Origin: a virus
Length of the DNA stretch: 44,021 bases
Virus record (IMG/VR): IMGVR_UViG_3300005663_002624
Span: 1-44,021 of that record
Strand: one strand, 5' to 3'
In this document: positions 13,332 to 38,340 of the stretch, one piece after another
How positions within the stretch are numbered: the stretch's first letter is position 1
Layout of the letters: the number at the start of each line of letters is the position of its first letter
Made by a program: the position numbers and the translations under genes
Notes under the pieces: generated by a model
What the model saw: only the letters and a program-made list of their open reading frames with translations
Databases searched by the model: none
Told to the model about the DNA's origin: nothing

Positions 13332-16300
13332 ATGATAGAGAATTTATTTGAAGAATTAAAAAGTAGTTTATTATCTTTGGATCCTGTTTATTATTGTGAG
13401 AACTATCTTACTTTAGATGGTTCCCCTTTTCGGTTGCATGGGAACGGATATCGTCCTTTCGCTGATATCTATAGATACATCGGAATAAAGGCACTAGAGA
13501 AAGATGCCAAGCCGGTCATTATTGTGAAAGGGCGCCAGGTGGGAGCTACCACGATGGCAGCAGCCCTTGAATTATTCTTTATGACATCTGGGATATTCGG
13601 CACAGCTAACAGAGCCCCAATGCGTGTTATGCACGCATTTCCACTTTTGGACCTGTCATATACGTATACTAAGACCAAGCTAAACACTATGATTTCTACT
13701 GCTGTTCTTGACAAGAATCAAAAGAAAGGCGTTAGACCGAAGACATATGTTGAAGCTAGAATTGACAGATCAGCCACTGCTAGTGAGTCTCTTCAGTTCA
13801 AACAGTTTTTATTTGGTAACCATATATTAATTGAGTCAACGGGACTTACAGGAGATAGAATCAGGGGGCGTCAGCTTTGTTTAAAGACAGAACTACCAAC
13901 GCCCACTGGTTTTGTTAAACTAGAAGATCTTAAAGAGGGTGATAGGCTTTTTGATGAAAAAGGAGAAATTTGTAAAGTTACTAAATTACACCCCATTCAA
14001 AAAAGCCCTGAGTCTTATAGGGTAACTTTTGATGATGGAACTACTGTTGATGCTTGTGCCGAGCACCTTTGGTTAACTTATACTAAAAAAGATAGAAGAA
14101 AGCTTGCTAAAGGGGAGGAAGTAGAACCTTCAATTAAAAATACTAAAGAAATTTTAGAAACTTTGCAGGTATTAAAAGAGAATAATCATTCAATACCTAA
14201 CTGTCTCCCACTGCAATATGAGAAAAAGAATCTTTTAATTGATCCTTATCTTTTAGGATTGTGGCTTGGTGACGGGAATAGACAGGCTCAGACTAGTAAT
14301 TGGGGGATATCTAAGTCTTGTTCTTATGGAATAGCTGGATTAGCTACTGATTTAAGAAAACTCGGTTTAGTTTATAATCCAGGACCTAGTAAAAGAAATA
14401 TTGAAGATGGATATTATCACAAATATATTCCTGAAAATTATTTACATGCTTCTGTCAAACAAAGACTTTCTTTGCTCCAAGGCTTAATGGATTCAGATGG
14501 TTGTTGCTATAAGGATGGCCGTTGTGAATTTGTACAAGTTAGAGAAAAACTTGCCTATGATGTGTATAATTTGATTATCAGTTTAGGTATAAAGGTAAAA
14601 ATTCGTAAAAGAGATAGTTATCGTTATGGTGTTAGATATAAAGATAAGTATCGTATTACTTTTTCAACTGATTTATCAGTTTTTAAGCTTAAAAGAAAGT
14701 TAGAAAGAATTCGCTCACAACACTCTAGGGTTAGGCAAAGATTTATTGTTTCAATTGAGCCAATAAAATCAAAACCAATGAGATGTATTACTGTTGATAG
14801 CCCATCTTGTTTATATCTTGTTACCAGGACATGTATTCCGACACATAATACTGTAGATTGTATCTTCTTTGATGAATGTTTTCCATATAGGCAGTATATA
14901 GAAACAGATTGCGGAAAAGAAAAAATAGGAAAATTATATCAACTTTATAAAGCCAATAAAAAGCTACCACTAGTTAAGACATATAATGAATATGAAGATA
15001 AATTTGAATATAAAAAAATATTAAATGTTTGGAAGCGAGATAAGAGAAAACTTGTAGATATTCATTGCAGTCATAAGCGTATAAAATGCACACCAAATCA
15101 TAGATTTTTAACATCTGATGGTTGGAAGCGTGCAGATGAATTAGTTGCTGGAGATTTACTTAAAAGCTCTATAGGTACTAATTTACATATAAGAGCGCTT
15201 AATGATGATCAGTTTCAAATTATTTTAGGTTCTTTTTTGGGTGATGGGCATTTGTCTACTCACAAACTAGGGCGATATAGAGTTAAGATTATACACTGTT
15301 TGGAACAAAAAGAATATTGCTCTTTCAAGGCCTCATGTTTAGGAGTAGATGTTTTAAAATTTATTCCCCAAAATGGATATAGTAAAAAACCTGCTGTTAG
15401 ATTTTCTACTAAAAACTTTGGAATATCGGAAACTTTTCCTAAAAATAAATCTACCTGTCCACAATGGGTTTTAGACAAACTAGACGAACGTGGTCTGGCT
15501 ATTTGGTTTATGGATGATGGTTCTGTAAATAAAAATAACGCCTGCATATCAACATGTTCTTTTGATGAAGATTCTCACAAGCGAATGGTGGTAAAACTAA
15601 AATCTATGGGAATAGATTGCCATTATGCTTTCTATTTTAAATCTGATAAAAACAAAGGATATTACTCAATATATATAAATAAAAATGGTTATCAACAGCT
15701 ATGTAAATTAATTGCACCATATGTATGTGACAAGATGGGCTATAAGATTAATTTTAATAAGGAAGAGATTTCATCCTATACTTGGAACAAATCTTTTAAA
15801 GGTTATGGATATTCTGTAGTAGACAAAGTTTTACCTACTGATAAAGAAGAATTTGTTTATGATATAGAGATTGAAGATAATCATAATTTTATTACAACAA
15901 CGGGCAGAAAAAGCAAAAGTTTAGGTGGCCCAATTGCTCATAATTGCCAGGATATCCCCGGCATAGCAATGGCTAATACCATTAAGACGCTCGCTCAGGC
16001 CCATTACGGCCCTGCTGGTAGCGGCATACAGGTATATTTTGGAACCCCTAAACAGAAGGGCTCAGACTTCTGGAATATTTGGCAAGTATCATCGCAGCAG
16101 TATTACTATCTTGGATGTGAGAGCTGTGGAGAGCATTTCCCCCTTTATACTCCTGAATCTAATGATTGGGAGAGCGTCTGGATTGAAGACAACATCCCAG
16201 CTGGGTATGTGGATCCAAAAACTGGATTGATGCCACATGGCTTTATAGTTAAGTGTATGCATTGTGATCATGAGCAAGACAAGCGTCCGGCAGCTGAGCG

Positions 16301-17297
16301 TGGGAAGTGGGTTTCTTCTAAGCCAGAACCAGATGATTGCAAATTCATTGGTTATCATATTAATCAATTATATATGCCTAATTTTACCAGGGAAAGAGTC
16401 CTTGCCGAAAAGCCAGAATTCAATCCGATTAACACTGAGCGTGCATATCAGAATGAGGTTCTAGGAGAGTTTTTTGCAGGCGATGCATCCCCAATTACTC
16501 CAGAGGAGATGCGCGTTCTTTGTGCCGATGAGACAAGATCTTTTAGGCGTAATATTTCGCTAGCAGAAGGTAAGAAAATCTATATGGGCGCTGACTGGGG
16601 ACAGAAAGTAGATATGGATCAGTTAGTAATTGGTGATAGGGAAAAAAAGCAGCGAGGACAGTCGTACAGTGCGGTAGTTGTATTATCTGCAGAAGGTCCA
16701 CATATTTTATCGGTTGAGTTTGCCAAGCTGCTGAAGCGTAACGATATGGAATATAAAAGAGCCTTTATTGATGAAACTTTTAGGCGGTACAGTGTAACTA
16801 TGGGTGTGGGCGATATTGGCTATGCCAATGACCTAACCGAGGTGTTACAGCAGGACTATGGTGACAGATTTTTGGCCAGCCGAGCCGTTCCTAAAATAAA
16901 ACACCATGCTAGATTTAATACCGATATATTTCCTAAGGAGATTGCATTTGAAAGGAACTATTATATATCAGAGCTATATGATTTAATGAAAAAACAACAA
17001 ATCAGATTCCCTTATGGCAGCTATGAACAAATCGGCTGGTTAGTTCAACATTGCTGCAGTATGGAAATTCAGCCAAAGATGAGTCGTACCGGCAATATTG
17101 AAATAAATTACATAAAAGGATCGACCCCTAACGACGGATTTATGGCTTTGTTAAACGCATATATAGCATATAAATTCGACATTACAAATGGATTTACCAT
17201 TCAAAATCCAAATAGCATGATGGATGACCCCACAAAGCGTCGCCCAATTATGGCGGTGACGGGATATGTGCCGAGAATGAATCCACTAAAAAGATGA
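13332..17297 (+). CDS. terL: Terminase large subunit with two inteins
   Basis: 1321-aa precursor. Removing the two inteins leaves about 640 aa, normal for a large-phage TerL. ATPase: deviant Walker A KGRQVGATT (66-74) and Walker B CIFFDE, whose Glu is the last residue before intein 2. Nuclease (RNase H fold): ADWG with D1088, GDIG with D1161, NDGF with D1268. A CxxC pair, YLGCESCGE, and a second, VKCMHCDHE, between the domains may bind zinc. The enzyme pumps DNA into the prohead and cuts the concatemer. Intein 1 is inserted between the RIRGR and TVDCIFFDE segments and intein 2 between FFDE and CQDIPG. Both host junctions read as a continuous terminase when the inteins are removed. No Shine-Dalgarno site; see the motif upstream. 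Confidence 0.93.
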   Translation: MIENLFEELKSSLLSLDPVYYCENYLTLDGSPFRLHGNGYRPFADIYRYIGIKALEKDAKPVIIVKGRQVGATTMAAALELFFMTSGIFGTANRAPMRVMHAFPLLDLSYTYTKTKLNTMISTAVLDKNQKKGVRPKTYVEARIDRSATASESLQFKQFLFGNHILIESTGLTGDRIRGRQLCLKTELPTPTGFVKLEDLKEGDRLFDEKGEICKVTKLHPIQKSPESYRVTFDDGTTVDACAEHLWLTYTKKDRRKLAKGEEVEPSIKNTKEILETLQVLKENNHSIPNCLPLQYEKKNLLIDPYLLGLWLGDGNRQAQTSNWGISKSCSYGIAGLATDLRKLGLVYNPGPSKRNIEDGYYHKYIPENYLHASVKQRLSLLQGLMDSDGCCYKDGRCEFVQVREKLAYDVYNLIISLGIKVKIRKRDSYRYGVRYKDKYRITFSTDLSVFKLKRKLERIRSQHSRVRQRFIVSIEPIKSKPMRCITVDSPSCLYLVTRTCIPTHNTVDCIFFDECFPYRQYIETDCGKEKIGKLYQLYKANKKLPLVKTYNEYEDKFEYKKILNVWKRDKRKLVDIHCSHKRIKCTPNHRFLTSDGWKRADELVAGDLLKSSIGTNLHIRALNDDQFQIILGSFLGDGHLSTHKLGRYRVKIIHCLEQKEYCSFKASCLGVDVLKFIPQNGYSKKPAVRFSTKNFGISETFPKNKSTCPQWVLDKLDERGLAIWFMDDGSVNKNNACISTCSFDEDSHKRMVVKLKSMGIDCHYAFYFKSDKNKGYYSIYINKNGYQQLCKLIAPYVCDKMGYKINFNKEEISSYTWNKSFKGYGYSVVDKVLPTDKEEFVYDIEIEDNHNFITTTGRKSKSLGGPIAHNCQDIPGIAMANTIKTLAQAHYGPAGSGIQVYFGTPKQKGSDFWNIWQVSSQQYYYLGCESCGEHFPLYTPESNDWESVWIEDNIPAGYVDPKTGLMPHGFIVKCMHCDHEQDKRPAAERGKWVSSKPEPDDCKFIGYHINQLYMPNFTRERVLAEKPEFNPINTERAYQNEVLGEFFAGDASPITPEEMRVLCADETRSFRRNISLAEGKKIYMGADWGQKVDMDQLVIGDREKKQRGQSYSAVVVLSAEGPHILSVEFAKLLKRNDMEYKRAFIDETFRRYSVTMGVGDIGYANDLTEVLQQDYGDRFLASRAVPKIKHHARFNTDIFPKEIAFERNYYISELYDLMKKQQIRFPYGSYEQIGWLVQHCCSMEIQPKMSRTGNIEINYIKGSTPNDGFMALLNAYIAYKFDITNGFTIQNPNSMMDDPTKRRPIMAVTGYVPRMNPLKR
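13872..14849 (+). other. Intein 1 of terminase, class 3 type, with LAGLIDADG endonuclease
   Basis: About 326 aa inside TerL. It ends THN followed by T507. It carries the class 3 triplet: Trp in block B (EHLW, W247), Cys in block F (RCITVDSP, C485) and Thr in block G (PTHN, T504). Taking Q181 as residue 1 puts the Trp at intein position 67 and rejoins the host as RIRGR-TVDCIFFDE. The alternative start, C183 (13878), would make it class 1-like and leave an extra QL in the host. LAGLIDADG motifs are LLGLWLGDG and LLQGLMDSDG. Family knowledge: class 3 inteins start splicing from the block F Cys instead of residue 1. Confidence 0.9.
14877..15944 (+). other. Intein 2 of terminase, class 1, with LAGLIDADG endonuclease
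   Basis: 356 aa, C516 to N871, followed by C872. Block B has CTPNHRFLTSDGW, and the end is GGPIAHN-C. Endonuclease motifs are ILGSFLGDGHL and LAIWFMDDGSV. It is inserted directly after the Walker B glutamate. Block A is unusual: a 60-residue stretch rich in Lys and Tyr separates C1 from the TPNH motif. Both His-Asn and the flanking Cys are present, so splicing should be competent. Confidence 0.93.
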
Positions 17298-17339: not shown

Positions 17340-18593
17340 ATGCTCAATAAAAATATTGTGAACCTAAATGAGTCCGCAACTTTGGTCATTAATAATAATG
17401 CCAAGAAATTAAGACAGAAAGGAATTAAAGTTTATAACATGGGATTGGGGCAGTCTCCATTTCCATTGCCTAAACAAACTGTTAAGGCGCTTCAGGCCAA
17501 CGCTGATGTAAATGTCTATTTGCCAACTAATGGGCTAGAAGCATTAAATAATAGTATTGTAAAGTTCTATAAGAATTATCACGATTTAGATGTAAGCCCT
17601 GAGCAGGTATTGGTCGGTCCGGGGTCTAAAAACTTGTTATTTTTATTGCATCTAATTTGGGATGGGCCAACTATACTGCCAACGCCTTGTTGGGTTTCAT
17701 ATGGTCCTCAATCAAGGATTTTTGGCAAAGAGCCATATCTTCTACATACCAGAGCTGAAGATGAGTGGAAAATGGCCCCTCAAGCGTTAGATGATTTGGC
17801 CAGGGGCATAGAGGGTGATATTCTTTTGGTTTTTAGTTCTCCAAGCAATCCCACTGGCAAGACTTACACAGATAAAGAATTACAGGCGCTATCCGAGGTA
17901 ATGCGTTCGCATAAGATGCTTGTTGTTTCTGATGAAATCTATGCGCTAATGAACTTCTATCACAGTTGTTCATCTCTTGTTAAATATTATCCTGAGGGGA
18001 CTATTATAAGTTCAGGTCTTTCAAAATGGTCGGCTGCTGGTGGCTGGCGTTTAGGAACATTTATATTTCCAAAATCAAAACTGGATTTACGTAAAGCTAT
18101 GGTGGTAGTTGGTAGTGAATCTTTTTCATCTGTTTGCACGCCGATCCAATATGCGGCTGTTACCGCATTTACAGAAGTTGATAAAAAATATATTAGTGGA
18201 TGTAAAAAGATACTTGCAGACTTATCATTTTACGCTTATGACAAATTAGAGAGCGCCGGCCTTATCACTGCAAAGCCAGATGGTGGTTTTTATATTTTTG
18301 TTGACTTTGCTAATTTCAGAGGCAAACTTGAGAATATGGGAATAACTGGTTCCAGCAGTCTTTGCAAGGCACTGTTAGAAAAGTTAAAGATAGCAGCCCT
18401 TTCTGGTGAAGCGTGTGAGCGAAATTCAGATGAGTTATCTATTAGATTGGCTTATGTTAATTTTGATGGAGCTGCGGCCCTTAAGGCCGCCAAAAACTAT
18501 GACGGTCCTTTGAATTCAGAATTTATTCAGCGCTATTGCAAGGAAACGATAGCAGCAATTGATTTGATTGCAGATTGGGTTAAAAACTTATAA
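17340..18593 (+). CDS. PLP-dependent class I/II aminotransferase
   Basis: 417-aa fold type I aminotransferase with the family landmarks in order: YLPTNGLEAL near the N-terminus, SSPSNPTGKTY (cofactor-contacting Asn), VSDEIYALM (Asp and Tyr that hold PLP), SGLSKWSAAGGWRLG with K229 as the Schiff-base lysine, and SIRLAYVNF with the Arg that normally binds the substrate carboxylate. Length is normal, and the gene looks intact and catalytically complete. It would transfer amino groups between an amino acid and a 2-oxo acid; the substrate cannot be read from sequence. A complete aminotransferase is rare in phages. It lies between terminase and PhoH, has a promoter-like motif of its own, and its stop overlaps the PhoH stop tail to tail. 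Confidence 0.9.
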   Translation: MLNKNIVNLNESATLVINNNAKKLRQKGIKVYNMGLGQSPFPLPKQTVKALQANADVNVYLPTNGLEALNNSIVKFYKNYHDLDVSPEQVLVGPGSKNLLFLLHLIWDGPTILPTPCWVSYGPQSRIFGKEPYLLHTRAEDEWKMAPQALDDLARGIEGDILLVFSSPSNPTGKTYTDKELQALSEVMRSHKMLVVSDEIYALMNFYHSCSSLVKYYPEGTIISSGLSKWSAAGGWRLGTFIFPKSKLDLRKAMVVVGSESFSSVCTPIQYAAVTAFTEVDKKYISGCKKILADLSFYAYDKLESAGLITAKPDGGFYIFVDFANFRGKLENMGITGSSSLCKALLEKLKIAALSGEACERNSDELSIRLAYVNFDGAAALKAAKNYDGPLNSEFIQRYCKETIAAIDLIADWVKNL

Positions 18594-20918
18594 GATATCT
18601 GCCGCATAAGTAGCAAGAGGACTTCTCTCTCCCTGTGTTAGGTTTATATGTCCTGACAGTGGAGAGTCTTTGAACTTGTTTATTATGTAAGTTAATCCAT
18701 TATTCATAGCGTCTAAATGATTGCTATCAATTTGTTCGATATCGCCTGTTAATATAATCTTAGTTCCGTATCCAACCCTTGTTAGGATCGTTTTGATTTC
18801 TTCTTTAGAAACGTTCTGAGTTTCATCCATCAATATGAATGAATTGGCAATACTTCTTCCCCTTATATAGGTCAGCGCTTCCATGCGTACTTTATCGCTA
18901 TATTGTGAAGATCTCCATCCGTATCCATTGCCGTTACCATTTTTTCTGTGTTTTTTAGAGCGGGAAGCAAGGTAATCCATACTGTCATGGATTGCTGACA
19001 TCCATGGTTCTAGCTTATCTGCAAGCTCACCAGGAAGATATCCCATATCAGTACCAACAGGCTGAATTGGCCTGTAAATAATTAGATTGTTATATTGTTT
19101 ATCACTGATAACGGCCTCAAGGCCACATGCTACAGATAAAAGCGTGTTGTGTGTTACAATAAAATTATCAGTTATATATAAGTGATCTGGCGAATCTATA
19201 TAAATACATTTAGCATCCATATCTCCAGCATATTCAATTTTATCAATATATTTTGTTGGTAGGTATTTTGTCCTTTCTGTAAATCTTTCTGTTTTGCGAG
19301 GCAGTGTGAATAATTGTAATCCAGGAGGCGGCGAAATATAAACAGCAAAACTAGGCCTGCCTTGTTTTTTTTCATTTTTATAAACAAAACTGGTTTGCTT
19401 GTTTGATATTGTAGCTTTACATCCTAAAGATTGGGCTAGGAATTGTACGTCATTTGCTAATCTTGATGATGTCGTATAAAAAACATTTTCGAATTTATTT
19501 TTATTTTTATTTCTACAAAATCCATCTGTGTCCATTAGGCCTTGCAAAATTTCAGTTCTAGTCTGAATGTTGTTTATTTTGTAAATGTGTGGGATATATT
19601 TTTCATATGATTTCAACCCACTTAATTCTAGTGTTCGTAATGCAGTAATAATTTGATTTTCTTTATTTGACCTGTACCCCTTTGTAATATAGTAATCATA
19701 TTTATTATTTGGCTTTTTAATTAGCTTTATGTTTTCGGGTAATAATTTAGCACATTTTTCTACTATAAAGGCGTCGCTTGAACAGCCATCTCCTAACAGC
19801 GCGCCTAATAAATATGGTTTAATTGGAACTTCTTTATGGGCAAATTCTACAGGTAAAACCATTGGAATAGAATGATTTCTCTTATTATATTTACCATATC
19901 GTAAGGTTTTGCGTATTTCTTTTAATGACTTTACAGTTCCGTTTTTATTATTCCACCTATCTTGACATGTTTTAGTTTGCCACAAATGATCGTCACAGCA
20001 CTCTGTAAATGTCTTATCGGAAAAATAGACACGATAGATTTTCTTAATTCCTTGTGGGTGTACTGAAGTTATTTTTTTACATTTTCCATTTTGGCCTATT
20101 ATAAGATCGTTTGGCAGTATACTGCCCATAGAAACAAAACCATTTGGCGTTAATATTTTAGCTGTTAACGGTTGAGCCTTGCCAGTTCCTGCTTTTCCTG
20201 ACAGGGTTACTAGTGGCACCTTGGGGTCTAATAGTAGGTCCATTGCATATGCCTGCTCTATATTTTTAGAATCGAGCCCCCATGGCTTTTGACTATTGAT
20301 AATCTTGATATTATTCCCGATTTTTCTTCCTAGCGCAATGCCTTCATCGTTTTCATCTTTAAAGAGAATACACTCATTGGGCGCCATGTCTTTTAGCTCA
20401 GAGCTTGCGCAAAGCATTTTGCTTTTTTTCAGCTTGTTTCCTAGGCTTGTGTCATGAATTATTCTTGCTCCGCTATATAGTTCATCGCTAGCTTTATTTT
20501 CATCGTTATGATCCTGAGAGCCCATGCCAAAAGCTCTAGCTCTTATTCTCATATTAACATCGCCACTCAAGACGATGACGCGATTATTATTATTCAAGTG
20601 AGCTGCGCAGGCAAGTATTTTATTGTCTACATATGATGCATCCCCAAAATTTGATGTGTCATAATTTTTCACATCTATTTTAATGTTTGTATTTTTATCC
20701 GTTTTAACGCCTTTACTTATATCGCCTTTGTCGGATAGCTCATCCAATAGTCGTATGAAGACTCTGGCATTTCTACCAGTGTCACCTGAATGTGTTTTTA
20801 TTTTATCAAGCTCATTTAAGACGCTTGCTGGAATAACAATATTTTCATTCGGAAAGCCATTAATGCAATATGGGTTAGAGATTATTACGGACGTGTCCAG
20901 TACGTATAATTTTGCCAT
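18588..20918 (-). CDS. phoH: PIN-PhoH family protein with one intein
   Basis: 776-aa precursor, about 432 aa after intein removal. The N-terminal PIN-like ribonuclease domain has LYVLDTSVII (D8) and later acidic residues including LSGDVNMRIRARAFG. The C-terminal PhoH ATPase has Walker A SGKAGTGK-T (240-247 plus T592), Walker B FILMDETQN (D698, E699) and ILTGDIEQID. Cellular PIN-PhoH proteins (PhoH2/YlaK type) couple RNA unwinding to cleavage, so a role in phage or host RNA turnover is likely. PhoH genes are common in large phages. It is the only intact gene on the minus strand. It is convergent with the aminotransferase (shared TTATAA, 18588-18593) and divergent from the portal. Confidence 0.92.
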   Translation of the reverse strand: MAKLYVLDTSVIISNPYCINGFPNENIVIPASVLNELDKIKTHSGDTGRNARVFIRLLDELSDKGDISKGVKTDKNTNIKIDVKNYDTSNFGDASYVDNKILACAAHLNNNNRVIVLSGDVNMRIRARAFGMGSQDHNDENKASDELYSGARIIHDTSLGNKLKKSKMLCASSELKDMAPNECILFKDENDEGIALGRKIGNNIKIINSQKPWGLDSKNIEQAYAMDLLLDPKVPLVTLSGKAGTGKAQPLTAKILTPNGFVSMGSILPNDLIIGQNGKCKKITSVHPQGIKKIYRVYFSDKTFTECCDDHLWQTKTCQDRWNNKNGTVKSLKEIRKTLRYGKYNKRNHSIPMVLPVEFAHKEVPIKPYLLGALLGDGCSSDAFIVEKCAKLLPENIKLIKKPNNKYDYYITKGYRSNKENQIITALRTLELSGLKSYEKYIPHIYKINNIQTRTEILQGLMDTDGFCRNKNKNKFENVFYTTSSRLANDVQFLAQSLGCKATISNKQTSFVYKNEKKQGRPSFAVYISPPPGLQLFTLPRKTERFTERTKYLPTKYIDKIEYAGDMDAKCIYIDSPDHLYITDNFIVTHNTLLSVACGLEAVISDKQYNNLIIYRPIQPVGTDMGYLPGELADKLEPWMSAIHDSMDYLASRSKKHRKNGNGNGYGWRSSQYSDKVRMEALTYIRGRSIANSFILMDETQNVSKEEIKTILTRVGYGTKIILTGDIEQIDSNHLDAMNNGLTYIINKFKDSPLSGHINLTQGERSPLATYAADIL
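19146..20177 (-). other. Class 3 intein in PhoH Walker A, with LAGLIDADG endonuclease
   Basis: 344 aa, A248 to N591, inserted between GK and T of the P-loop. It starts with Ala (AQPLTAKILTPNG), so it lacks the usual first nucleophile. The W-C-T signature is present: W313 (DDHLW), C571 (AKCIYIDSP) and T589 (VTHN). The next host residue is Thr. Endonuclease motifs are LLGALLGDG and ILQGLMDTDG. It resembles terminase intein 1 in several blocks (GLMDxDG, LANDV/LAYDV, the block F to G ending), so the two are probably related. Confidence 0.93.
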
Positions 20919-21120: not shown

Positions 21121-24100
21121 ATGTCAAAAACTGGAATAGAAAAATTTTTAAGCAATAGGGGCACTACCAATGTAGCCTCCAATCATATGTCTAAGGTAGT
21201 TTCTCAATATCGACGAGAAGTAATGCAAGACGAAGTGTTCAGAGGCGATTTTAGAGAAAAGGGAAGTACCGGGTATGACCTGCCAAGGGGGTATGAAGAT
21301 AATATTAAAACCTCGGCCGGCAATGTGCTTTCGAACTATTCAGGGTTTAGAAAGGACGCCCAAGTAAGCCCAGGCTCTGGTACTGGTGCGGGCGCAGGAT
21401 CCTATAGAGGGTCTGGAGGGTCTTTACGACAGATTCCAGAAATTTATAGCCCTCTTTGGCTAAATAGCAATCTTAATCTACCAAGAGATAGAGCCACTAT
21501 AAATGCGTGGAGCAGAGCGTTTTTTGCCTTGAACCCTGTTGTACATAATGCTATTTCTTTACATTCAACATATCCAATTTCCAAATTAAACATTAAATGT
21601 AAAGATCCAAAGATTCAAGCCTTTTTTGAGGACATGGTAGAAGAAACCGATCTAATGAACATTTGTGTGCAGATGGCTCAGGAGTATTGGCTTCTTGGTG
21701 AAACATTTGTATATGGTGAGCTTGATGAGCGATCTGCTAAGTGGAGTAGATTCTTAATTCAAAATCCAGACTACATGGTTGTTAAACATAGCGTAGTAGC
21801 TGGTGAGCCAATTCTAAGCTTGCGCCCTGATGAAAATTTAAAGACCATAGTAACTTCAAATAGACCATCAGACGTACAGCAGCGCCAGAGACTTGACCAA
21901 AGCATTATTGAACATGTAAAGCGTGGCGAAAATATCCCATTAAGCAATTTTTACGCTTCACACCTAGCTAGACGAATTAGCCCATATGAAACAAGGGGCA
22001 CAGGTTTGGTAGTATGTTGTTTCAGACATCTGATGTTGTTCGATAAACTCCGCGAATGCTATTCGACTGATTGCGAGGTTTTAACTAAAGACGGTTTCAA
22101 AAAAATCACTGATTTAATTACTACAACTGATAATTTGGATATAAGTCCTAATTATGTCAGTGGTGCTGTCGCGGATGATAATGGCAATTTAAAACTTCTT
22201 ACGCTTAAAGATAATGTAGAAATAGCCTGTTTTAATCAAGAGACTGGCGAGATTGAATATCACATTCCTGAAGAATTTCATATGTCTTATTATAAAGGCA
22301 AGATGTTACATTTTAAAGGGAAAAAGGTAGATACTCTTGTAACTCCCAATCATAAGCTTTTAGTAAAAGAGAGTAAAGGTGAAGGGTGGACAGATTTTAG
22401 TTTACGCAGGGCGTCAGAACTTTTAGAAAAGAAAACTTATTATAAGTTTAAGTCTCATGCCAAGTGGAATGGCGAGCAGCGTTTAGAGGACATTGATGTA
22501 GCTGGACATAAAGTGCCAATTGGTTTGTATTTAAAGGTCCTTGGTTATATGGCGTCCGAAGGTTGCGTTTATAAAAACTATAAAAAAGGAAGATATGATG
22601 CAAAGATAATTACAAGCCAGCTTACTAGCAATAGATGCTATGAAGAGATGCGTGAAACATTTAATAAATTTGCATCATGTCTTAATAGAAAATGTGGCCA
22701 CTATGTTGGAATAAAGGGTTCTGGTTATTCAAAGAATGCCCCCAAAGAAAAGTGGGAGGGAATAATTCATGGTAAAGAAATCGTAGAGCATTTTTTGAAT
22801 GAGATTGGCAATGGAGAGAAGGCCGGTTCTTATGAAAAGAGATTGCCTCGTTGGGTTTTTGGTCTACATTCTGAATTATTACTTATTTTGCTTCAATCAA
22901 TGATGCAAGGAGACGGAACGACTGTAACTAGTAAATATGGAACAAAGTCTAAACTTTTTAAATATTCAACTGTATCTAAACACCTTGCTGATGATGTTTA
23001 TGAGCTTGCATTTAAATTAGGCCACGTTCCAACTATATGTACAAGTGTTGCGAAAAAGACTGATGGTAGAGTTGTAACCGAGTATATTGTATGCTGGTCT
23101 ACAACTAACTATGGCAGAGAGCCTCTCGTTTATACGGGTGTTAAAAAGGCTAATAACAATGGTGGCGGAGCAACTGTAAATGAAGTAGATTATGATGGAG
23201 TCGTTTGGTGTTTCACAGTCCCTACTGGTGCATTTATTACTAGGCGGAATGATAAAATTTCTATACATGGGAATTCGAAGTTTGCACAAGCAGATAATAT
23301 GATTAATCCACTAACACTCGTTAAGATTGGCGGGGCTGGTGAGAATTATAAGCCCACACCAGTAGATCTTGAGGCATGGCGTCAAATCTTTGAGGAATGT
23401 CATGATGAAGAAACTGAAGTTTTAACAGATAAAGGGTTTAAAAAATATGATGAAGTAATTGAAGAAATTATGGTAGCAGATGGTACAACTGGATCATTTC
23501 ATTCCGTTGGGGCTAGAACGAGAACAGGTTTTAAGATTGCTTGTTTTAATTCCGATAATGAACAGTTAGAGTATCATGCGCCTTCTGCCGCTCATATTTA
23601 TGATTATGATGGAGAAATGTATCACATACATAATAATAAGATGGATATAAAAGTTACTCCTAATCATAAAATGTGGGTACAACATAAGAAGTTTACCGGA
23701 ACAGGAAAAGGCCGTACCTGGAAGTGGGATAATTGGGACAAAGTTCGAATTAAGGATATGAAGTTTTGGGATCGTAGATTTAGATCGCAAATTAAATGGA
23801 AAGGAAATGATTCTATTAAGGAGGTTAATGTAAATCAAAAGAATGTTCCTATAGAATTATATTTAGAGCTACTTGGGTACATGATAAGTGAAGGTTGCCT
23901 ATATACGAATAATAAATCACAAAACACAATAGGCGTTTGTCAAAATATAACAAACAAAGACGGTTCTAAAAATCCGCATTTTGAGACCATGCGAAAATGT
24001 GCTCATGATTTTGCTGTAATTATAGATAAGACGTTTTCTGAAAGGTTTTTTAAGAGAGACGGGGCAAAGGGTTGGGACATTACTTTTTGTGGTAGAGAAT

Positions 24101-25356
24101 TATTTAATCATTTTGTGAATGAAATAGGTAGTGATGAGGGTTATAAATCTTATAATAAAATAATTCCTAAATGGGTTTTAAACTTGAGTCCGCGATTATT
24201 GAAAATATTGTTAGCCGCTATGGTGGTCGGTGATGGAAGCAATTATGTAAGGCCAAAAAACAAAGATTTGAATGGCTTTTTCTATTATACATCTTCGAAG
24301 CAATTAGCTGACGATGTATATGAGATGGTTTATAAGATCGGCTTTGTTCCTACCATGTTCTCGCGTGAAAGTGAAAATCATCATCACCATGAACTATATA
24401 CTGTACAATGGTCCAATTCTAACATTGGCAATAAACCATTTGTTAACAAATACAGTATAGACCCTAGAACAAAAGAGAAAAAAGAAATAGTTTCTAAGGT
24501 TCCGTATCAGGGGAAAGTATGGTGTTTTACTGTGCCAACAGGTTTATTCATAACAAGACGAAATGGGAAAATAACAATACAGGGGAATTCTCAATATGAT
24601 AAAGATTTCAAGATCTTCACTCATGAGGCCGTTACAGTTGAACGTGTAGGCCATAATGCCGGAATCATTGATATTGCTAATGATATCACACAGCTTCTTA
24701 AAGAGATTTATATAGGGCTAATGATTCCTCAGGTATTAATGGATGGCGGTGCGGATGTAACCTATGCGAATGGTGGAGTAACACTAGATGTTCTAAAGCA
24801 GAGATATTTACAGTTTAGAAATATGCTCGGCTCTTGGCTTAGAAGAAAAGTATTTGCCCCAATATCAAAGATTAATGATTTCTATGAACGAAAGGAAGGC
24901 GAGAAGGTACTTATCGTTCCTGAGGTTGAATGGAATCATATGTCATTATTTGATGCCGGAGATCATATTCAGACATTAGTACAGCTATCTCAAGGGCAGG
25001 GGCCAGATAAGAGAGTGGCCACTCAAACGGTTTATCGATCTCTTGGTCTTGATTGGGAAGATGAAGTAAGAAAGATGAAGGTTGAAGCTATTCAAGACGC
25101 TATTAATGACAGAGAGAAGGTTGCGCTAGCTAAAATTCCTCTTAATGAGCTTCGTTCTTTGGGGCCTGATGATGCCATTGATGAGCCAGATGAGGGTCTA
25201 CTTCCAGGTGAAACCGAAGAAGGTGCAGGTGAAGGCGGTCCTGAGCTTCCAGAGCTGCCAGGATTAGGACCACCTCCAGGTGGTCTAGGTGGACCTCCGG
25301 GTGGAGCCCCGCCTGAGGGCGAATTACCGGAGGCAGGACCGCCGGCTGGGCCATAA
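21121..25356 (+). CDS. Portal protein with two inteins
   Basis: 1411-aa precursor; removing inteins of 406 and 397 aa leaves 608 aa. Host parts: an N-terminal region leading to IPEIYSPLWLNSNLNLPRDR and RAFFALNPVVHNAISLHSTY, a stem/wing region (MAQEYWLLGETFVYGEL), then KFAQADNMINPLTLVKIGG and FKIFTHEAVTVERVG, and a GIIDIANDITQLLKEIYIGL helix. This is the pattern of large-phage portal proteins (upper-collar type). The last 60 residues are Pro/Gly-rich and probably disordered. The protein forms the dodecameric DNA gate of the prohead and the dock for terminase. It has a TAGGAA ribosome site. The gene is one open frame despite two insertions. Confidence 0.85.
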   Translation: MSKTGIEKFLSNRGTTNVASNHMSKVVSQYRREVMQDEVFRGDFREKGSTGYDLPRGYEDNIKTSAGNVLSNYSGFRKDAQVSPGSGTGAGAGSYRGSGGSLRQIPEIYSPLWLNSNLNLPRDRATINAWSRAFFALNPVVHNAISLHSTYPISKLNIKCKDPKIQAFFEDMVEETDLMNICVQMAQEYWLLGETFVYGELDERSAKWSRFLIQNPDYMVVKHSVVAGEPILSLRPDENLKTIVTSNRPSDVQQRQRLDQSIIEHVKRGENIPLSNFYASHLARRISPYETRGTGLVVCCFRHLMLFDKLRECYSTDCEVLTKDGFKKITDLITTTDNLDISPNYVSGAVADDNGNLKLLTLKDNVEIACFNQETGEIEYHIPEEFHMSYYKGKMLHFKGKKVDTLVTPNHKLLVKESKGEGWTDFSLRRASELLEKKTYYKFKSHAKWNGEQRLEDIDVAGHKVPIGLYLKVLGYMASEGCVYKNYKKGRYDAKIITSQLTSNRCYEEMRETFNKFASCLNRKCGHYVGIKGSGYSKNAPKEKWEGIIHGKEIVEHFLNEIGNGEKAGSYEKRLPRWVFGLHSELLLILLQSMMQGDGTTVTSKYGTKSKLFKYSTVSKHLADDVYELAFKLGHVPTICTSVAKKTDGRVVTEYIVCWSTTNYGREPLVYTGVKKANNNGGGATVNEVDYDGVVWCFTVPTGAFITRRNDKISIHGNSKFAQADNMINPLTLVKIGGAGENYKPTPVDLEAWRQIFEECHDEETEVLTDKGFKKYDEVIEEIMVADGTTGSFHSVGARTRTGFKIACFNSDNEQLEYHAPSAAHIYDYDGEMYHIHNNKMDIKVTPNHKMWVQHKKFTGTGKGRTWKWDNWDKVRIKDMKFWDRRFRSQIKWKGNDSIKEVNVNQKNVPIELYLELLGYMISEGCLYTNNKSQNTIGVCQNITNKDGSKNPHFETMRKCAHDFAVIIDKTFSERFFKRDGAKGWDITFCGRELFNHFVNEIGSDEGYKSYNKIIPKWVLNLSPRLLKILLAAMVVGDGSNYVRPKNKDLNGFFYYTSSKQLADDVYEMVYKIGFVPTMFSRESENHHHHELYTVQWSNSNIGNKPFVNKYSIDPRTKEKKEIVSKVPYQGKVWCFTVPTGLFITRRNGKITIQGNSQYDKDFKIFTHEAVTVERVGHNAGIIDIANDITQLLKEIYIGLMIPQVLMDGGADVTYANGGVTLDVLKQRYLQFRNMLGSWLRRKVFAPISKINDFYERKEGEKVLIVPEVEWNHMSLFDAGDHIQTLVQLSQGQGPDKRVATQTVYRSLGLDWEDEVRKMKVEAIQDAINDREKVALAKIPLNELRSLGPDDAIDEPDEGLLPGETEEGAGEGGPELPELPGLGPPPGGLGGPPGGAPPEGELPEAGPPAGP
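22057..23274 (+). other. Intein 1 of portal protein
   Basis: 406 aa, C313 to N718, followed by S719. Block A is CYSTDCEVLTKDGFKKITDL, block B has TLVTPNHKLLV, and block F/G is WCFTVPTGAFITRRN ending IHGN-S. The residue before the final Asn is Gly rather than His. The endonuclease core has LGYMASEGCVY and LLQSMMQGDGT, LAGLIDADG-type motifs with Glu in the first. Host joins as FDKLRE-SKFAQADN. Confidence 0.9.
23398..24588 (+). other. Intein 2 of portal protein
   Basis: 397 aa, C760 to N1156, followed by S1157. Block A is CHDEETEVLTDKGFKKYDEV, block B has IKVTPNHKMWV, and block F/G is WCFTVPTGLFITRRN ending IQGN-S. Endonuclease motifs LGYMISEGCLY and LLAAMVVGDGS line up with those of portal intein 1 throughout, so the two are homologous. 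Host joins as WRQIFEE-SQYDKDFK. As in intein 1, Gly replaces the penultimate His. Confidence 0.9.
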
Positions 25357-35603: not shown

Positions 35604-35928
35604 TAACGAACCATATGACTATGCTGCGGCAATGGATCAATATCTTAATCCTAACAAGATTACGAAAAATGCCAATAATAACGCAGTGGATGAAGCGCTT
35701 CAAAACTTAAATAAGGCGGCTGAACTACTAGATGCTATGGGCAAATTTGGTGCGTCTGAAGTTATTACAAAGATGATGGAGCATATTCCGACTGCAGTAC
35801 ATACGGCCGAAAATACTCAGGTAAATATTGATTTTGTAAAAGAAGCATCGGCAGATGAACAAAACCAACAGCAACTAAATGAAGAAATGCTTCAAGCGCT
35901 TTTAGGACCAAGAAATGTTTCTAGATAA
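35596..35928 (+). CDS. Small helical protein of the virion cluster
   Basis: 110 aa from ATG 35596, which overlaps the previous stop (ATGAATAA). An upstream in-frame Met at 35560 lies within the preceding gene and is unlikely. It has a leader with DYAAAMDQYL, then the two-helix module (LNKAAELLDAMGKFGASEVI) and a Gln-rich end. No enzymatic motif. It overlaps the next gene by 14 bases. Confidence 0.58.
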   Translation: MNNNEPYDYAAAMDQYLNPNKITKNANNNAVDEALQNLNKAAELLDAMGKFGASEVITKMMEHIPTAVHTAENTQVNIDFVKEASADEQNQQQLNEEMLQALLGPRNVSR

Positions 35929-36301
35929 AACTTCAGAAGAAGAGTTTTTTGCTTCATTAGAAAGCAATCTCCATAAGCAGCATTCATTCGAAGATGACTT
36001 AAAAAGCAATCGTGTATCTGATGTGCAGGCTTATCTTAAGCGTGCCGCTTTAGCTTTAGCCAGAGCAGGCTTGCGCAAAGAGGCAGAATGTGTAGTAATG
36101 GTTTCTGAAGATGCTATGAAGGACTTAACCAGCGAGAAAATGCTTAAAAACCTAGAGCAAAAAGGTTGGGTATTTAATGCAGATGACGGTCATAGCCAAG
36201 ACGCATGTATGGCTGAAGATTGTGCCCAGTGTTCAGAAGGCAGTCAAGCACAGCTGAGCCAACAAGAACTAAAAGATCTAAGAGCCTTACTAAATAAATA
36301 A
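35915..36301 (+). CDS. Small helical protein of the virion cluster, Cys near C-terminus
   Basis: 128 aa with an AGGA site. It has an acidic leader (SEEEFFASLESNL), the two-helix module (LKRAALALARAGLRKEAECV) and a short Cys motif (DACMAEDCAQC). It is the last gene before a terminator and the inverted homing endonuclease. Function unknown. Confidence 0.58.
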   Translation: MFLDKTSEEEFFASLESNLHKQHSFEDDLKSNRVSDVQAYLKRAALALARAGLRKEAECVVMVSEDAMKDLTSEKMLKNLEQKGWVFNADDGHSQDACMAEDCAQCSEGSQAQLSQQELKDLRALLNK

Positions 36302-36349: not shown

Positions 36350-37284
36350 CTATTTGAAAGACTGTTTTAATTCTATGAACTTATCGTATTTGCGTTGAAT
36401 ATAAATCGTGGCGTCTTTGTATAGCCATTCCATAAACTTATAGACCTGGCGATTGCCTCCGAACGAAAGCTCTGTTGTTATCTTATTAACCTTACGAGTA
36501 TATAGGTTTGGGTTTATGCTAAGCTCTTTTTTGATTATTTGTTTAACAGAAAAACAAAAATTCTTAGCAGATGCCAAAGAGGCCGAATAAGCCTCATAGC
36601 CATTTTTTTTTGTTGAAGATGAAATACAACCATCACCATCAAAGTATCCTCGGATCCAATGATGAACTAAGTTCTTAGGGATGTTCTGAGGCGGTTTTAA
36701 AATCAACCATTTTCTAGGGACAACTCCTTTGTCTACCAGATCCATGCACAGTTTCTTCGATCTGATGGCAGTTCGCCTTTAATAAAATTAGGAAATTCTA
36801 GTTTTAAACTTTTAGCAGGAATACAGCCAAGTTTAATGAGCTGCTCGCTTATTATCTTGCTGCTGAACAGTAGTTTATATTGGTTTTGTTGAGGATACGG
36901 CTTATTAACAATATATAATTTATGATTTGGTGCAATATAGTTCTTAAATATCTCTACAATTTTTTTATCACGCTCTTGTAGGCATAGAGATATTGAGTAG
37001 TAGTTTCTAGTCTTGCTTTTAATATATACATTACCATCAGCATACATCAGCCCTAGGAAGTATGCCTTCTCTTCGCTGTCAATATTGTTAAAGAAATCAG
37101 TATTGATTGTATGACTTTTATCTATGTCCTCTTTATAAATTTTACGAACACCAGCTTGGCGTAATATCTTCCTGACCGTTGGTCTAGATATATTTAATTT
37201 TCTTGAGATCTGAGCTAGATTTTTATTATGGGAGTTATATAGATCAATGATATTGTTTTTGGATTCGTCTGATATCTTAGGCAT
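36350..37284 (-). pseudogene. Broken, chimeric HTH-LAGLIDADG homing endonuclease
   Basis: Read on the minus strand. The first part (37284 to 36733) has an N-terminal HTH (LAQISRKLNISRPTVRKILR) and the first LAGLIDADG motif (AYFLGLMYADGNVY), runs to LGCIPAKSLKLEFPNFIKGE, then goes out of frame to a stop. The second part, another frame (from about 36760 to 36350), reads SKKLCMDLVDKGVVPRKWL, then HHWIRGYFDGDGCIS (second LAGLIDADG motif). The G-x-x-P-x-K segment before the second motif is therefore present twice in different versions. This suggests a junction between two related endonucleases plus a frame change. It probably no longer makes an active enzyme. It sits between two plus-strand virion genes. 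Confidence 0.8.
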
Positions 37285-37330
37285 ATCTAAGCATATAACA
37301 GCAATGACACATATTAATCAGAAAAACATA

Positions 37331-37344
37331 AGGAGTTCGTTATT
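37331..37344 (+). promoter_or_regulatory. Ribosome site that sets an AUU start
   Basis: AGGAG (37331-37335) lies 6 bases before ATT 37342-37344. No ATG, GTG or TTG exists in this frame between the upstream stop (37315-37317) and TTG 37438, 32 codons into conserved-looking protein. Confidence 0.6.
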
Positions 37345-38040
37345 TTAAGGATCGTACAATCGGGTAATTCTTTACCATTTTCATTTGCAGTAGACCCAAA
37401 CGCAGAATTTGAACCTGGTCAAATTGCTCAGCTAACTTTGATCGGAAATCAAATTGTTTGTGGTATTTCAGATGGTACGGCCCCAATGGGGGTCATTGAC
37501 GACATTAAGAAGAATGCTTTTTCCGCTGCATCTATTGATGAGACCGTTATTGCTCCAATTCCAGATGCGATTGTTGCCGGCTCTGGAGCCAATTTAGTAA
37601 CGACCGTAGATGTTAAAGCGGAGCTAAGAAACCCAAACATTATTGATAGCTCATTTGTGTCAAGAAATGTAGACGCTGTATTAAATGCTAGAAATGGAGT
37701 AATTACATTATTGGCTGGCACTCAGCTTAATCACGATCAGGATGGTGATGGTGTTCCTGACTCAGTAAGAACTGTAGTTAGTTATACGTATCAGATTCCC
37801 AATGTTCCTGGCGATGATTCTACAGCTGCAAGCGGTAGAATTACAGTATGGTTTCAGCGCATGATCGCGGCGACTGATGCTTTTGAGACCAATCAAAGAT
37901 ATCCTGTCAACGCTCCATTATTCGTTAATGAGTCTGGATTATTAACTACTAGGCAGATATCTGCTGATTATCCATCAATAGCTTTTACAACGGCCCCTCC
38001 AACGAGTATTCATGGTAGCCTCGAATTTCTCTGGTTATGA
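37342..38040 (+). CDS. Decoration-like virion protein with AUU start
   Basis: 232 aa from ATT 37342. The N-terminus would be (M)LRIVQSGNSLPFSF, followed by beta-rich sequence with EFEPGQIAQLTLIGNQ and SDGTAPMGVIDDI. A middle loop, DQDGDGVPDS, is a thrombospondin type 3-like calcium motif. The C-terminal RYPVNAPLFVNESGLLTTRQ and final LEFLWL match the end of the next intact gene (38325-38699) in layout, so the two are probably paralogues of a beta-barrel capsid decoration or fibre family. The start was moved upstream because the ribosome site and residues before TTG 37438 look like part of the protein. Function by context only. Confidence 0.65.
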   Translation: MLRIVQSGNSLPFSFAVDPNAEFEPGQIAQLTLIGNQIVCGISDGTAPMGVIDDIKKNAFSAASIDETVIAPIPDAIVAGSGANLVTTVDVKAELRNPNIIDSSFVSRNVDAVLNARNGVITLLAGTQLNHDQDGDGVPDSVRTVVSYTYQIPNVPGDDSTAASGRITVWFQRMIAATDAFETNQRYPVNAPLFVNESGLLTTRQISADYPSIAFTTAPPTSIHGSLEFLWL

Positions 38041-38072
38041 GATCTTCACCAAATTACGCATACTTAGATAAT

Positions 38073-38340
38073 ATGTATTTATATAAAATAACAAATAAAA
38101 TTAATAATAAGCATTATATAGGTCAAGCTGTGGAGATTGCCAGAAGGTGGAGTCAACATAAATCTGGGGCCAGATCGATTATCAATGGTACCAAGAAGAT
38201 GGGAGATAATGGTATCCAAGTAGTCCATCTAGCTATAGCTAAATACGGGGCTGAAAACTCGCTCTTTAAGAAAGATAGCTAAAGATTTTGGCGTAAGCAC
38301 TACGGTAATTCGTAGGATTAAGAAATGTTCAAAATTATAG
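38073..38340 (+). pseudogene. GIY-YIG homing endonuclease remnant
   Basis: From ATG 38073 the frame encodes MYLYKITNKINNKHYIGQA and ARRWSQHKSGA, the start of a GIY-YIG nuclease (YLYKIT...HYIGQ, then the catalytic Arg helix). It stops at 38280 after 69 residues, before the catalytic Glu region. In another frame, 38281-38340 encodes KDFGVSTTVIRRIKK, a typical C-terminal HTH of such enzymes. The middle is deleted. The remnant overlaps the start of the next gene. Confidence 0.75.

Follow-up and report, generated by a model that had tools for sequence, protein, structure and literature searches.

infC and pcnB of Escherichia coli start with AUU, a start codon that to our knowledge has been described for few genes of bacteria and phages. 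The AUU starts of pcnB and of cvfC1 in Staphylococcus aureus reduce expression, and that of cvfC1 has a strong Shine-Dalgarno (SD) sequence (PMC13009471). In phage T4, free-standing endonucleases of the Seg/Mob type (SegG, SegH/Hef, MobE) target the neighbouring gene and are inherited together with flanking sequence, and co-conversion by such enzymes is established (PMC2988022). The same phage carries a defective free-standing homing endonuclease, mobA, beside gene 60, which contains a 50-nt bypassed insert proposed to have given protection from cleavage (PMC5009743, PMC3014915). Huge phages are known to encode the translation factors IF1, IF3, rpS1, and rpS21 (PMC7162821). A limited literature search turned up no account of non-AUG starts linked to homing.

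Here we describe a phage gene that appears to start with AUU next to a broken homing endonuclease gene. The window, which is the whole stretch of 44,021 nt analysed (IMG/VR record IMGVR_UViG_3300005663_002624), lies within a head and packaging module with terminase, portal, and protease-like genes. The features around the start are as follows.

35915–36301, plus strand: conserved upstream gene, the left flank of the endonuclease insertion
36350–37284, minus strand: LAGLIDADG homing endonuclease gene, divergent to the decoration-like gene and split by a frameshift
37292–37299, plus strand: CATATAAC, a candidate promoter element ~50 nt upstream of the start
37304–37348, plus strand: short overlapping ORF (MTHINQKNIRSSLF), whose stop TAA overlaps codons 2–3 of the decoration-like gene
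37330–37335, plus strand: Shine-Dalgarno AAGGAG, 6 nt before ATT (best SD core match 7 nt, TAAGGAG, spacer 6)
37342–37344, plus strand: probable ATT start codon; relatives carry ATG at the homologous position
37342–38040, plus strand: coding sequence of the decoration-like protein, 232 aa from ATT (orthologue alignment, all-beta model, PDB fold matches)

The reading frame of the decoration-like gene is open from a TAA at 37315–37317, and the codons ahead of the ATT are TCA GAA AAA CAT AAG GAG TTC GTT, with no ATG, GTG, TTG, or CTG in frame between the two. The initial annotation had pointed to an AGGAG 6 bases before the ATT and to 32 codons free of conventional starts, and both statements hold: AAGGAG is separated from the ATT by the spacer TTCGTT (37336–37341), and the first in-frame NTG on the 3' side is TTG 37438 at codon 33. 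The N-terminal stretch ILRIVQSGNSLPFSF.VDPNAEFEPG is conserved across orthologues, and R3, G8, N9, P12, S14, D18, F23, and G26 show no or almost no variation in 51 relatives, the majority having ATG at the same codon. It had also been suggested that the residues after the ATT belong to the protein and align with the N-terminus of its paralogue. The first part is supported by the conservation among orthologues, but the second is not, as sequence alignment of the paralogue at 38325 covers just the C-terminal half (residues ~111–228), and this argument was dropped as support for the start. The gene has the features expected of a genuine AUU gene, namely no usable in-frame NTG, conserved residues after the AUU, and an SD at normal spacing. 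Taken together, the sequence comparisons make it very probable that translation begins at AUU 37342, driven by the SD AAGGAG.

The decoration-like label itself is plausible. AlphaFold gave an all-beta model (pLDDT 87, pTM 0.60), and the best PDB matches (8pkh, 9gb0, 5wk1, and 8hdt) are consistently capsid outer-shell, decoration, or cement proteins of phages BB1, phiCD508, TW1, and Pam3, but none reaches E ≤ 0.001, so that the original naming stands only in this qualified form. The protein matched no Pfam or PHROG family.

The gene family was gathered from IMG/VR by four scans and a fifth added afterwards, and comprises 97 distinct relatives from large environmental phages. No relative was found in the INPHARED collection of annotated phages at the DNA or protein level, and a scan of bacterial genomes returned a single one, which lies on a contig of 383 kb from a Chitinophagales bin. 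At the homologous codon, 72 of the 97 loci have ATG, and another 8 have ATG one codon earlier; the codon is ATT in 11, ATC in 3, ACG in 1, and TTG in 1, and one locus is truncated at its end. A further ATT locus with an endonuclease (L303) lies beyond this count. In six ATT/ATC/ACG loci (the window, L004, L029, L135, L153, and L224), no NTG occurs from the upstream stop to codon 25, whereas L001, L003, L047, L212, L227, and L303 are weaker cases because an alternative in-frame NTG lies nearby. All non-NTG codons found differ from ATG by one base, as expected if they are decoded by initiator tRNA. The sister locus L001 (71% protein identity) has ATT at the same codon and an intact endonuclease. 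On a gene tree built from codon 25 onward, leaving out the first 24 codons, the start type is scattered, with 14 changes. Comparison across the family thus indicates many origins or acquisitions of non-AUG starts at this codon, and the AUU start first proposed for the window is corroborated by orthologues with ATG at the same codon as well as by independent relatives with ATT, ATC, or ACG there.

Non-NTG starts are not a habit of these phages, because a gene-by-gene comparison of three phage contigs (358–480 kb; 352–390 kb of each read) yielded no other convincing gene without an NTG start. Each comparison covered 66–124 SD-ATG starts with an orthologue, and just one antisense-looking ORF lacked an NTG in the partner. 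Under looser criteria, the decoration-like gene stood out in L004, most other flagged loci look antisense, and we read one further locus as a probable product of −1 frameshifting; we therefore rejected the idea that these phages tolerate non-NTG starts in general. An ORF containing NEPEHRF, at L275:3552 (+), L297:1717 (+), and L255:16083 (+), has no NTG in two phages; the A7 run before it (CTAAAAAAATAA) would fit −1 programmed frameshifting.

The sequence in front of the near-cognate starts follows two layouts. In the first, represented by the window, L001, L004, L135, L224, and probably L212, the ATT occupies the usual place of the ATG after an SD (AGGAGG in L135, GGAGG in L212, AAGGA in L004 and L224). 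In the second, a leader ORF or part of one stands in front (L003, L047, L029, L032, L040, L042, L134, L153, and L303), and in most of these loci its stop adjoins or overlaps the near-cognate start. True-looking leader ORFs in this position are found in L003, L047, L040, and L042. A hairpin, GGCATTG...CAATGA, is kept in most loci of the second layout and in the ATG relatives L161, L305, and L457; in L029, L032, L040, L042, L134, L153, L161, L303, L305, and L457, it lies in the last ~50 nt before the gene, and its upper stem covaries, changing while staying paired. TATATA-type boxes similar to CATATAAC occur ~35–53 nt upstream in many relatives. Leader ORF and hairpin together look like a mobile leader module of the endonuclease cassette, and termination-reinitiation may operate in the second layout. 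Because the phase of the leader stop differs among relatives, we discarded the possibility that ribosomes generally enter the gene from the leader ORFs by frameshifting or bypass.

The report of a broken homing endonuclease just upstream proved correct. In the window, the gene is split into two overlapping ORFs, an N-terminal part at 36733–37284 and a C-terminal part at 36350–36745, whereas it is intact at the same place in most relatives carrying it. The ORFs match phrog_4645, which is an endonuclease family (E 4e-34 and 6e-30), and PF14528 (above cut-off), and helix-turn-helix (HTH) matches are below cut-off; the predicted product would combine the LAGLIDADG domain and DNA-binding HTH of a free-standing homing endonuclease. 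A homologue of the 35915–36301 gene ends ~124 nt before the start in L002, which is without the endonuclease. Among the best 18 endonuclease matches with usable flank, 17 are head-to-head with the decoration-like gene and one is on the other side. Matches of ~40% identity or less sit elsewhere, except for sister L001 and one copy downstream in the phage of L227. These comparisons indicate that the closest relatives of the endonuclease are nearly confined to this site, in head-to-head orientation immediately upstream of the gene.

Other mobile elements are found nearby. A GIY-YIG endonuclease fragment (38037–38282) lies directly 3' of the decoration-like gene and overlaps its stop, so the gene is flanked by two endonuclease remnants, LAGLIDADG upstream and GIY-YIG downstream. 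Related plus-strand endonucleases lie just downstream of the gene in two ATT phages (L224:693–1520 and L227:769–1593 after the gene start). The head module of the window is dense in mobile elements, with internal intein or LAGLIDADG domains in terminase, PhoH-like, and portal genes (13332–17297, 18588–20918 on the minus strand, and 21121–25356).

Where the flank was long enough to judge, 9 of the 13 non-NTG loci have an endonuclease upstream, compared with 10 of the 80 NTG loci (Fisher p 4e-5, uncorrected for kinship). L032, counted among the four non-NTG loci without the endonuclease, retains an apparent decayed remnant. Endonuclease presence changes 15 times on the tree built without the first 24 codons.

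A close pair of relatives shows how the start codon can move. L134 (ATC, with endonuclease) and L141 (ATG, without) differ at 25 positions in 690 nt of the gene, with 19 mismatches in nt 2–58 and none in nt 59–625 (p about 5e-16). The differences in nt 2–58 are mostly at third codon positions and include the start codon, and mismatch also climbs toward the boundary in the left flank. The L134 junction is present in two metagenomes (L134 and L138), and the pair L140/L151 has a similar 5' tract. At the site of the L134 endonuclease, L141 carries a gene of ~110 aa, about 408 to 55 nt before the decoration-like gene. Homing repair that carries flanking DNA along with the endonuclease would be expected to leave such a footprint, whichever allele is the older. 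The tract includes the start codon and shows that a start codon can be exchanged by co-conversion. The preference for one site in the endonuclease scan and the mobility with co-conversion seen in the L134/L141 tract are as expected of a homing endonuclease. Silent divergence in the first 19 codons is 0.68 against 0.44 for the rest in endonuclease-bearing non-ATG alleles and 0.56 against 0.44 in ordinary alleles; this excess is a hint only because the pairs are not independent.

Based on these results, we consider it likely that the non-AUG start is linked to homing, and we favour as the probable explanation that intronless homing, directed at the start of the gene, has both preserved the AUU start and moved it. 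In this scenario, alleles lacking the endonuclease would be cut near the gene start, and donor-templated repair would bring in the endonuclease together with the 5' leader and ~60 bp of the 5' end of the gene. Near-cognate starts would spread because donor repair copies the start codon along with the endonuclease, and they would persist because initiator tRNA can still use AUU or AUC on a good ribosome-binding site or behind a coupled leader ORF. In the window, the endonuclease would have broken later while the AUU stayed. Several observations count against homing: ten endonuclease-bearing loci keep ATG, L004 and L135 have ATT without an endonuclease, the kinship-corrected count of independent pairs points in the right direction (6.2 together versus 1.0 against) but is not significant (median p 0.125), an alternative in-frame NTG lies near some non-ATG starts, and the L134/L141 pair does not reveal the older allele, with L141 having another small gene at the site. 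A speculative extension, less likely than not, is that the AUG is part of the endonuclease recognition site, and the change to AUU, AUC, or ACG confers immunity or escape because AUG has no synonymous codon. If so, a selfish nuclease would repeatedly drive a conserved gene to non-AUG initiation.

An alternative is a pure insertion scar, in which the endonuclease, inserting at the start codon, destroyed the ATG once and a fortuitous near-cognate codon took over, with no co-conversion or immunity involved. The association of non-ATG starts with the endonuclease is in its favour, as are L003, L047, L040, L042, and L134, which have ~57–66 nt and a leader ORF between an ATG and the near-cognate start. 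However, the ATT of the window, L001, L004, L135, and L224 occupies the ancestral place of the ATG behind a normal SD, some endonuclease-bearing loci have ATG, and the converted tract of L134/L141 extends 58 nt into the gene, which makes this reading unlikely. The initial annotation had offered loss of the original ATG during endonuclease insertion as one of two explanations. Involvement of the endonuclease is the better of these ideas, but the start is probably not a simple insertion scar, because the ATT sits with its own SD where the ancestral ATG was, ten endonuclease-bearing loci keep ATG, and the close pair shows co-conversion of the 5' end.

The other explanation was IF3-dependent control as in infC and pcnB. 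IF3 is the factor that proofreads start codons, and a weak, IF3-sensitive AUU might be retained to limit or time the structural protein, perhaps under a phage-encoded IF3. Of the 15 relatives' records searched, eleven, all of large viral relatives, encode a full-length IF3, including those of the ATT phages L004, L054, and L224, and AUU lowers expression of cvfC1 and pcnB (PMC13009471). However, IF3 co-occurs with ATG and ATT versions of the gene alike, ATG predominates in the family (80 of 97 loci) and alternates with ATT between relatives rather than AUU being conserved as in an infC-like case, and the association with the endonuclease is left unexplained. Regulation is thus a rather improbable reason for the AUU, and the earlier proposal gains no specific support. 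The IF3 loci (L231–L241, in phages G001, G002, G003, G004, and G008–G014) mostly start with ATG, so we rejected AUU as the start of the phages' own infC genes. The window record, a 44-kb fragment and the sixteenth searched, yielded no IF3. Phage IF3 is interesting context, not evidence for IF3 control of this gene.

It is quite unlikely that ribosomes finish the short ORF at 37304–37348 and re-initiate at the overlapping AUU. The overlap of its TAA with the gene start and the relatives with a clear leader ORF, whose stops lie between −9 and +7 of the near-cognate start and whose hairpin is kept, would fit such coupling, but the window ORF, with neither SD nor hairpin, is probably fortuitous, a strong SD directly serves the AUU, and a chance uORF is found by the same test in 19 of 71 ordinary ATG loci. 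Finally, a base-call error in this single metagenomic contig or a true start at TTG 37438 is extremely improbable, because sister L001 and many independent relatives share a non-ATG codon (ATT or ATC) there and the TTG start would lose the conserved residues among the N-terminal 32.

The homing-linked start thus favoured would provide a testable explanation for odd start codons beside mobile genes. Non-NTG starts are missed when gene calling allows only ATG, GTG, and TTG. A structural gene that flips between AUG and AUU, AUC, or ACG in many lineages, largely in step with a homing endonuclease beside its start codon, is a natural series for the cost of non-AUG initiation and for how a selfish element can fix non-AUG starts.

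Like infC, pcnB, and cvfC1, the decoration-like gene appears to use AUU as its start, and like cvfC1 it has a strong SD. Those are cellular genes, and the cvfC1 start is conserved among staphylococci, whereas the structural phage gene described here switches between ATG and AUU, AUC, or ACG from one relative to another. IF3 occurs in relatives of the window as reported for huge phages (PMC7162821), and in the relatives' records searched, phage IF3 showed no association with non-AUG starts. As in T4 intronless homing, the endonuclease lies next to the targeted gene and flanks are co-inherited; unlike Seg/Mob, the enzyme is of the LAGLIDADG type, the hosts of the element are uncultivated large phages, and the target of the predicted cleavage is apparently at the start codon. 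By analogy, the closest precedent is T4 mobA with gene 60, which shares with the window a free-standing, defective homing endonuclease adjoining a phage gene with unusual translation. The mobA endonuclease is HNH, whereas that of the window is LAGLIDADG, and gene 60 involves bypass of an internal insert whereas the oddity here is the initiation codon, the window having no upstream coding exon of the kind that gene 60-type bypass requires along with matched take-off and landing codons. Gene 60 is a single case, whereas the apparently homing-linked start described here recurs in many lineages.
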